NCBI RefSeq assembly: GCF_026239655.1
Contig: NZ_JAPIVO010000001.1
Coordinates: 620,001 to 684,000, forward strand
Origin: Pedobacter sp. MR2016-24
GTDB lineage: Bacteria > Bacteroidota > Bacteroidia > Sphingobacteriales > Sphingobacteriaceae
DNA length: 64,000 bases
Direction: 5' to 3'
In this document: piece after piece, positions 47,891-50,970 of the stretch
How positions within the stretch are numbered: position 1 is the first letter of the stretch
Layout of the letters: every line of letters starts with the position of its first letter
Made by a program: the position numbers and the translations under genes
Notes under the pieces: model-generated
The model's database searches: none
The model's input: the letters and a program-made list of their open reading frames with translations, nothing else
Told to the model about the DNA's origin: nothing

Positions 47891-48462
47891 TGACTTACAT
47901 ACCAAGATTAAAGACTAAATACAAAGAGGAAATTGTAACAGCTCTGAAAGAGAAGTTTGCTTACAAAACTGTGATGCAGGTTCCTAAATTAGAGAAAATA
48001 GCTATCAACCAGGGTGTTGGTCGTTTCTCTGTGACTGACAAAAAGATTATTGACACTTCTATTGTAGAAATGAGCACAATCGCAGGTCAGCAGGCAGTTG
48101 GATCAAAATCTAAAAAAGATATCTCAAACTTCAAATTACGTAAGGGTATGCCGGTAGGTGTACGTGTAACTTTACGTGATAACAACATGTTTGAGTTTTT
48201 AGATCGTTTAATTTCCGTAGCTTTGCCACGTATCCGTGATTTTAAAGGTATCAACGATAAAGGTTTTGATGGAAAAGGTAATTACACGTTAGGTATTACT
48301 GAGCAAATCATCTTCCCTGAGATCAACATCGACAAAATCTCTAAGATTTTAGGTATGGATATTACCTTTGTAACAACAGCTACCACTGATGTTGAAGCAT
48401 TGGAACTTTTAAAACAATTTGGATTACCGTTTAAAAATCAAACCCCTAATACAAATCAATAA
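47890..48462 (+). CDS. rplE: 50S ribosomal protein L5
   Basis: 5S rRNA-binding protein of 190 residues ([48 protein letters not shown]). Overlaps both neighbours by 1 bp (TAATG). In E. coli the S8 repressor site covers the start of this gene; here the fold is instead found before rpsH. Confidence 0.98.
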
Positions 48463-48731
48463 TGGCAAAAGAAGGAGTAAAAGCTCGCGAAGTTAAGCGC
48501 CAAAAATTAGTAGCTAAGTATGCAGACAAACGTGCTGAACTTAAAGCTGCTGGTGATTATGAAGGATTAGATAAATTACCAAAAAATTCATCTGCTGTAA
48601 GATTACACAACAGATGTAAATTGACTGGTCGTCCTCGTGGTTACATGCGTACTTTCGGTATATCAAGGGTTACTTTCCGTGATATGGCTTTGGCAGGAAA
48701 AATTCCTGGAGTTACAAAAGCAAGTTGGTAA
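48462..48731 (+). CDS. rpsN: 30S ribosomal protein S14, zinc-independent long form
   Basis: Small-subunit head protein of 89 residues, the long C-minus type: it has one Cys ([13 protein letters not shown]) and no CxxC zinc ligands, unlike the 61-residue zinc form. Overlaps rplE by 1 bp. A 140-bp folded gap separates it from rpsH. Confidence 0.97.
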
Positions 48732-48745
48732 AAAAGAATTCGTCT

Positions 48746-48843
48746 ACGTTAGTTGTTACGCCTTAGGGCGTAATATTGCTAACGTTTAGGCGTTTACAAA
48801 AACAAATATTAACCGATGGCAGGTCGTTCCGAAGGGTTCGGAA
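48746..48843 (+). promoter_or_regulatory. Two-hairpin element between rpsN and rpsH
   Basis: Hairpin A: ACGTTAG (48746-48752) / CTAACGT (48779-48785) outer stem and TTACGCC (48756-48762) / GGCGTAA (48767-48773) inner stem, loop TTAG, with an asymmetric internal loop (TTG / TATTG). Hairpin B: TTCCGAA (48827-48833) / TTCGGAA (48837-48843), loop GGG, 28 bp before the rpsH ATG. No T-run follows either, so they look like an RNA regulatory element, not a terminator. Confidence 0.6.
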
Positions 48844-48871
48844 AGGAAACCACTATCACAACTCAATAATA

Positions 48872-49270
48872 ATGAATACAGATCCAATAGCAGATTATCT
48901 TACAAGAGTAAGAAATGCCATCAAGGCAAATCACAGAATTGTAGAAATTCCTGCATCAAACCTGAAAAAGGAAATCACGAAAGTTCTTTTTGACAAAGGT
49001 TACATTGCTAATTACAAGTTTGAGGACACTACTGTTCAGGGAACGATTAAAATCGCTTTGAAGTACAATCCTATAACTAAAATACCTGCTATCCGCACGT
49101 TAATGCGTATCAGCAAACCAGGTTTAAGGCAATATGCTGGCGTTGAGAAAATGCCAAGAGTATTAAATGGTTTAGGTATCGCTATTTTATCTACATCTAA
49201 AGGTGTAATGACTGATAAAGAAGCAGCCAGACTAAACATTGGTGGCGAGGTTTTGTGTCACGTTTATTAA
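48872..49270 (+). CDS. rpsH: 30S ribosomal protein S8
   Basis: 16S rRNA central-domain binder of 132 residues from ATG at 48872 (MNTDPIADYLTRVRNAIKAN). The frame is open 32 codons up through the hairpin region, but that stretch has no family similarity. The C-terminus has STSKGVMTDKEAARLNIGGE and LCHVY. S8 represses the spc operon in E. coli by binding mRNA, making the folded gap just upstream of interest. Confidence 0.97.
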   Translation: MNTDPIADYLTRVRNAIKANHRIVEIPASNLKKEITKVLFDKGYIANYKFEDTTVQGTIKIALKYNPITKIPAIRTLMRISKPGLRQYAGVEKMPRVLNGLGIAILSTSKGVMTDKEAARLNIGGEVLCHVY

Positions 49271-50932: not shown

Positions 50933-50970
50933 AGGTTGTAAATTAGTTTAAAATTACTAATTTGCAACCT
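50933..50970 (+). promoter_or_regulatory. 15-bp hairpin between rpmD and rplO
   Basis: Stem 50933-50947 / 50956-50970 (AGGTTGTAAATTAGT and ACTAATTTGCAACCT, one G-U pair), 8-nt AT-only loop. It is followed by TTGTATATG, not a T-run. Candidate mRNA processing, attenuation or protein-binding site within the spc operon. Confidence 0.55.

Follow-up and report, generated by a model that had tools for sequence, protein, structure and literature searches.

Ribosomal protein uS8 is known to control the spc operon in E. coli and presumably does so in V. cholerae; a 2024 review describes the uS8 mechanism in other species as unknown, and phylogenetic studies of it as not advanced (PMC10931766). For RNA recognition, uS8 needs a 595-(596-644) base triple, a (G597-C643)-641 triple and an invariant A642, and natural variation at positions 595, 596 and 644 exists, the 596-644 pair being C-G in T. 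thermophilus (PMC4176348). Leaders for ribosomal proteins, proposed to be autogenous like the one described here, have been reported from the same bacterial class, Bacteroidia, as the L13 and S4 motifs of Eckert and Weinberg (2020), and none of the 20 motifs in the main table of that paper has S8 as its ligand or rpsH as its lead gene (PMC7247131). An earlier mention of such an S8 leader may exist beyond the mostly open-access literature that our search covered.

The element analysed here is located in a 64,000-nt stretch of Pedobacter sp. MR2016-24 (the window) and occupies positions 48809-48858 of the plus strand, directly upstream of rpsH. It very probably serves as a uS8 operator in the mRNA, mimicking the S8 site of 16S rRNA helix 21, and mediates feedback repression of rpsH translation. 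With the E. coli spc operator it has in common the presumed ligand, the operon, the S8 core (GAAAC with AGGUC in the window, GAAAC with AAGUC in E. coli) and the imitation of helix 21. It differs from that operator both in its location and in its strand order. The E. coli operator (GAAACU...AAGUC) begins with what is the 3' strand in the rRNA and is situated at the start of rplE, inside the coding start, whereas the window element (AGGUC...GAAACC) retains the rRNA order and is placed before rpsH, two genes downstream and wholly upstream of the start codon. Around the rplE gene of the window, which overlaps rplX, no S8 core was found in either strand order; conversely, the rpsN-rpsH spacing of E. 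coli is 33 nt and holds no S8 core of this kind. The combination of the same ligand and core with a different gene and topology suggests an independent origin, and the two operators probably arose independently.

The rpsN-rpsH gap

The gap between rpsN (48462-48731) and rpsH (48872-49270, plus strand, ATG at 48872) comprises exactly positions 48732-48871, or 140 nt. The rpsH product, ribosomal protein uS8, is both the presumed ligand and the product of the presumed regulated gene; in phmmer searches it matches solved uS8 chains (best E 2.3e-63) and the E. coli uS8 sequence of entry 1s03 (E 1.6e-30). The neighbouring genes are packed more tightly, with one-base overlaps at rplX/rplE and at rplE/rpsN and 18 nt between rpsH and rplF, in agreement with the remark of the earlier note that this gap is unusually wide. 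The gap is kept in all 34 same-genus genomes examined (107-167 nt), in line with the expectation that it would persist in close relatives. The 5' part of these gaps is wholly changed, while the last ~65 nt retain the arrangement TTAACCGATRGNAGGTC-(hairpin)-GGAAACCACTATC-(13-15 nt)-ATG.

The entire gap is more stable than chance (z -4.15, 0 of 200 shuffles), because of a strong hairpin in its 5' part (hairpin 1); the 3' element by itself is not unusually stable (z -1.06). Folding energy, not being significant on its own, was dropped as evidence for the S8 element, the reality of which rests on conservation and covariation. In Rfam 15, the gap has no match at the gathering threshold and only chance-level matches at E values up to 10, and 20 related loci likewise gave none; a known Rfam RNA was thus rejected as the identity of the gap.

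Architecture of the 3' element and comparison with helix 21

The whole conserved element (TTAACC...CTATCA, 50 nt) is supported by conservation and covariation, with one model match per genome. Its lower stem P1 is formed by GATGG (48815-48819) and CTATC (48853-48857), and compensatory changes are seen among relatives in all five pairs. Above P1, in E. coli 16S numbering and by alignment to helix 21, the 5' strand of the core, C-A-G-G-U-C (48820-48825), supplies 594, A595, 596, G597, U598 and C599, and the 3' strand, G-A-A-A-C-C-A (48846-48852), supplies 639, A640, 641, A642, C643, 644 and 645. Positions 594 and 645 face each other above the stem, followed by A595, the pairs G596-C644 and G597-C643, the bulged A/U641 and A642, and the pairs U598-A640 and C599-G639. 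A variable cap closes the structure. An A-rich spacer of 14 nt (48858-48871; 13-18 nt in relatives) leads to the rpsH ATG.

The cap (48826-48845) includes the GC-rich 7-bp hairpin to which the earlier note had drawn attention (48827-48843), which stands 28 nt upstream of the ATG. That hairpin is real, but it is just the top of the larger element, which the earlier note had not recognised. Its segment varies in sequence and in length (4-25 nt in relatives), and 111 of the 118 apical segments of at least 14 nt fold at -1 kcal/mol or better. The key part of the predicted S8 site is the internal loop below this apical hairpin.

The 16S gene was not found in the draft assembly of the window strain, and helix 21 was taken from same-genus genomes (UUAAGUC...GAUACUG). 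The comparison with this helix, which the earlier note had suggested, shows that the element core matches the uS8 site: A595, a 596-644 pair, G597-C643, the 641/642 bulge, U598-A640, C599-G639 and the strand order are common to both. The 596-644 pair is G-C in the element but A-U in the local rRNA, position 641 is mostly A rather than the U of helix 21, the lower stem is only ~5 bp, and the short cap is unrelated. As positive controls, the descriptor of the core recovers helix 21 in the 16S rRNA of congeners, and when strand-swapped it also recovers the operator known from E. coli (rplE +6/+80), in agreement with the published A+80-(A+81-U+11) triple (PMC4176348).

The window and 140 distinct relatives share all structural features of a helix-21-type uS8 site. 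Among these 140 elements, A595, the GG/CC pairs, U598-A640 and A642 are invariant; position 641 is A in 115 and U in 25; the 599-639 pair is A-U in a single element and otherwise C-G (139); and each P1 pair occurs in at least two standard types.

Covariation and distribution in Sphingobacteriaceae

The core is nearly constant, and covariation therefore tests the stem rather than the core. The earlier note had proposed to look for covarying pairs in related genomes, and the stem does covary. In 60 diverse sequences, 99.3% of the cells are paired, six of the nine pairs show double changes, and the stem contains 39 compensatory cells against a shuffle mean of 10.2 (0 of 500 shuffles reach 39). 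The signal is lost when the partner strand is slid by 1-3 columns. From the alignment alone, RNAalifold finds the same stem; it joins U598 to 642 instead of 640, as expected of an energy model in a non-canonical loop. As in autogenous r-protein leaders, a conserved and covarying RNA structure lies upstream of the gene for its likely ligand.

A pattern search of one genome per species (84,980 species) matched at least 119 stretches, and all 80 of these that were examined lie directly before rpsH, their titles naming Pedobacter, Mucilaginibacter, Sphingobacterium, Olivibacter, Arcticibacter, Parapedobacter, Daejeonella and other Sphingobacteriaceae. At one of these loci, L170, an out-of-frame ATG comes first, and rpsH starts 13 nt further on. 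In 93 of 151 family genomes, from 17 of 25 genera, a covariance model has one match and no more. The gaps of non-matching genomes add one genus (g26), bringing the element to 18 of the 25 sampled genera; it is absent from the gaps read in g28, g31, g32, g34 and g47, and no rpsH was found in two of the 25. With a class-wide model of diverse members and strict filters, all 15 sampled family genomes matched and none of 380 others did. These genome counts are samples, in which related sequences are not independent events.

The descriptor (A595, G597-C643, A or U at 641, A642, pairs at 596, 598 and 599, and at least 4 of 5 pairs in P1) matches 187 of 202 distinct upstream regions of the family, with 2.75 expected from mononucleotide shuffles. 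By itself it is loose, with 22 chance-level places on the plus strand of the 64 kb, about 1 per 3 kb. That rate, together with the several r-protein genes adjoining the element, leaves some room for a leader that serves a different r-protein encoded in the cluster, such as uS14 or uL6, or an unrelated ligand, its likeness to helix 21 being accidental. We regard this as improbable: the link with rpsH is exclusive among the matches examined, the positions that hardly vary are the ones cited for uS8 recognition, and two more families have the same core before rpsH in other sequences.

Sites before rpsH in other families of Bacteroidia

In the rest of the class, the descriptor matches 8 of 84 distinct upstream regions (1.42 expected), seven of the eight in families f11 and f54, where the same core precedes rpsH in a different sequence. 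The f11 form, AGCNNRUAAGAG-loop-CUWACURYYGGC, fits 27 of 32 loci, and L423 fits by eye. It contains 27 compensatory cells from 18 distinct sequences (0 of 500 shuffles). Positions 598-599 are A-G paired with U-C, and 596-644 is A-U as in rRNA; position 641 alternates between A and U in both f1 and f11. In f54, GAUUAAAGGUU...AAAACCRUAAUC is present at both loci examined. Four f11 loci (L429, L432, L433 and L437) carry GAAAGUGC...GUAACUC before rpsH in place of the full core, which we read as a putative S8 site that has degenerated or been altered.

A widespread conserved hairpin, UAUAAUUAUCC...GGAUAACAUAUAA, is found just before rpsH, within the last 60 nt, at 17 class-level loci of other Bacteroidia families (among them L036, L038, L042, L050, L348, L354, L358, L361, L363, L371, L374, L381, L384, L386 and L394). 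Its topology is like that of an S8 site, with an A595 bulge, U596-A644 and AA at 641-642. It departs from the core at 597/643, where U is combined with C, G or A, and its lower stem never varies. Another covarying hairpin before rpsH, UUAAAUAUUGUC...GAUUAAUUUAA (L390, L398, L404 and L410), lacks A642 and was rejected as an S8 site. Strand-swapped sites, in the E. coli order, are absent around rpsH in the 84 distinct class-level regions (1.1 in shuffles).

Tentatively, and with somewhat less than even confidence, we suggest that the rpsN-rpsH junction of Bacteroidia may be a recurrent birthplace of uS8 operators, with at least three sequence-distinct full-core forms (Sphingobacteriaceae, f11 and f54) and UAUAAUUAUCC...GGAUAACAUAUAA as a fourth. 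If true, rRNA mimicry would have originated repeatedly, or diverged deeply, at one place, and the natural uS8 recognition code would be wider than known.

Hairpin 1 and promoter-like motifs

Hairpin 1 (48741-48792, plus strand) begins 9 nt past the rpsN stop and forms 22 bp in three stacked blocks with two small bulges (-26.9 kcal/mol, z -6.0), ranking fourth in stability among distinct 60-nt stretches of the window. The earlier note had described a two-part hairpin of 14 bp at 48746-48785, which exists but is larger by folding. The structure is kept across relatives (133 distinct 5' parts, mean z -5.05, 91% below -2), while its sequence turns over completely; the nearest relatives retain the ACGUUAG...CUAACGU stem with an altered interior. 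Hairpin 1 is present in a single copy, and a dispersed repeat was rejected, only a 15-bp chance match occurring elsewhere in the genome. A second very stable hairpin of the spc operon lies at 50933-50970, between rpsE and rplO (z -7.6), and has no T-run.

A strong hairpin just past rpsN could point to a transcriptional attenuator or terminator, formed by both hairpins and governing read-through from rpsN to rpsH, and a T-tail follows the 5' hairpin at some Sphingobacterium loci (L123, L152). There is very little chance that this is correct. As already remarked in the earlier note, neither hairpin of the gap is followed by a T-run, for which reason a terminator reading was rejected, and a T-run is absent from most relatives as well. 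The sole terminator-like match of the region is on the opposite strand, inside rpsN, and an attenuator would leave the conserved core unexplained.

Hairpin 1 is without S8 features and must serve another role. Our best guess is that it is separate from the S8 element and insulates rpsH from ribosomes leaving rpsN, or alternatively that the mRNA end of the upstream genes is protected or processed through it. A cooperative arrangement, in which binding of S8 would uncover or mask a site of mRNA processing at hairpin 1 and so cause S8-dependent decay of the upstream cistrons (retroregulation) in addition to the block of rpsH, is a possibility that we consider rather unlikely. Nearly all family members have hairpin 1 alongside the S8 element, although the hairpin sequence turns over, and in E. 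coli S8 retroregulates upstream genes (PMC10931766). However, the two parts fold independently in the predicted structure, and the hairpin at 50933-50970, also without a T-run, makes a general insulating role for hairpin 1 as likely.

TTG-N17-23-TAnnTTTG is the promoter type of Bacteroidota. No promoter of TAnnTTTG type was found in the gap of the window, and its element is therefore probably contained within the long spc transcript. In the 5' part of other lineages, TTG-N17-23-TAnnTTTG occurs in 15 of 133 (0.45 expected); there, as in the Sphingobacterium loci described next, a separate transcript of rpsH would have the S8 element in its 5' UTR. In the Sphingobacterium loci L152 and L123, the TACTTTTG promoter-like motif is directly followed by the T-tailed, terminator-like hairpin and then by the S8 element, possibly an arrangement of attenuation plus S8 control. 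Family loci without the S8 element (L294-L299 and L306-L314) have a TAnnTTTG promoter-like motif 40-54 nt before rpsH in 8 of 11 tested, which points to a separate transcript start for rpsH at these loci.

Proposed control of rpsH by uS8

The idea of an S8-binding leader before its own gene, raised in the earlier note for the gap as a whole, is supported for the 3' element, whose core matches that of the helix 21 site; hairpin 1 does not appear to be an S8 site. Binding of uS8 to the element is inferred from core identity and conservation, and repression of rpsH and translational coupling by analogy with E. coli. Free uS8, arising when synthesis outpaces uptake by 16S rRNA, would bind the element. 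Since only 14 nt separate the end of the element from the AUG, the bound protein would keep the 30S subunit from loading on rpsH, and the complex would overlap the docking 30S. Genes past rpsH (rplF, rplR, rpsE and on) would fall too, via translational coupling. The upstream genes rplN to rpsN are outside the direct reach of the proposed control, and hairpin 1 may insulate or protect them.

The lineage starts translation largely without Shine-Dalgarno pairing. The element is a clear candidate for a uS8 operator in another phylum and at another gene, with its core strands opposite to the E. coli order. It would offer a natural test of evolutionary convergence in rRNA mimicry, and of the way in which a repressor prevents initiation in bacteria where Shine-Dalgarno sequences are seldom used.
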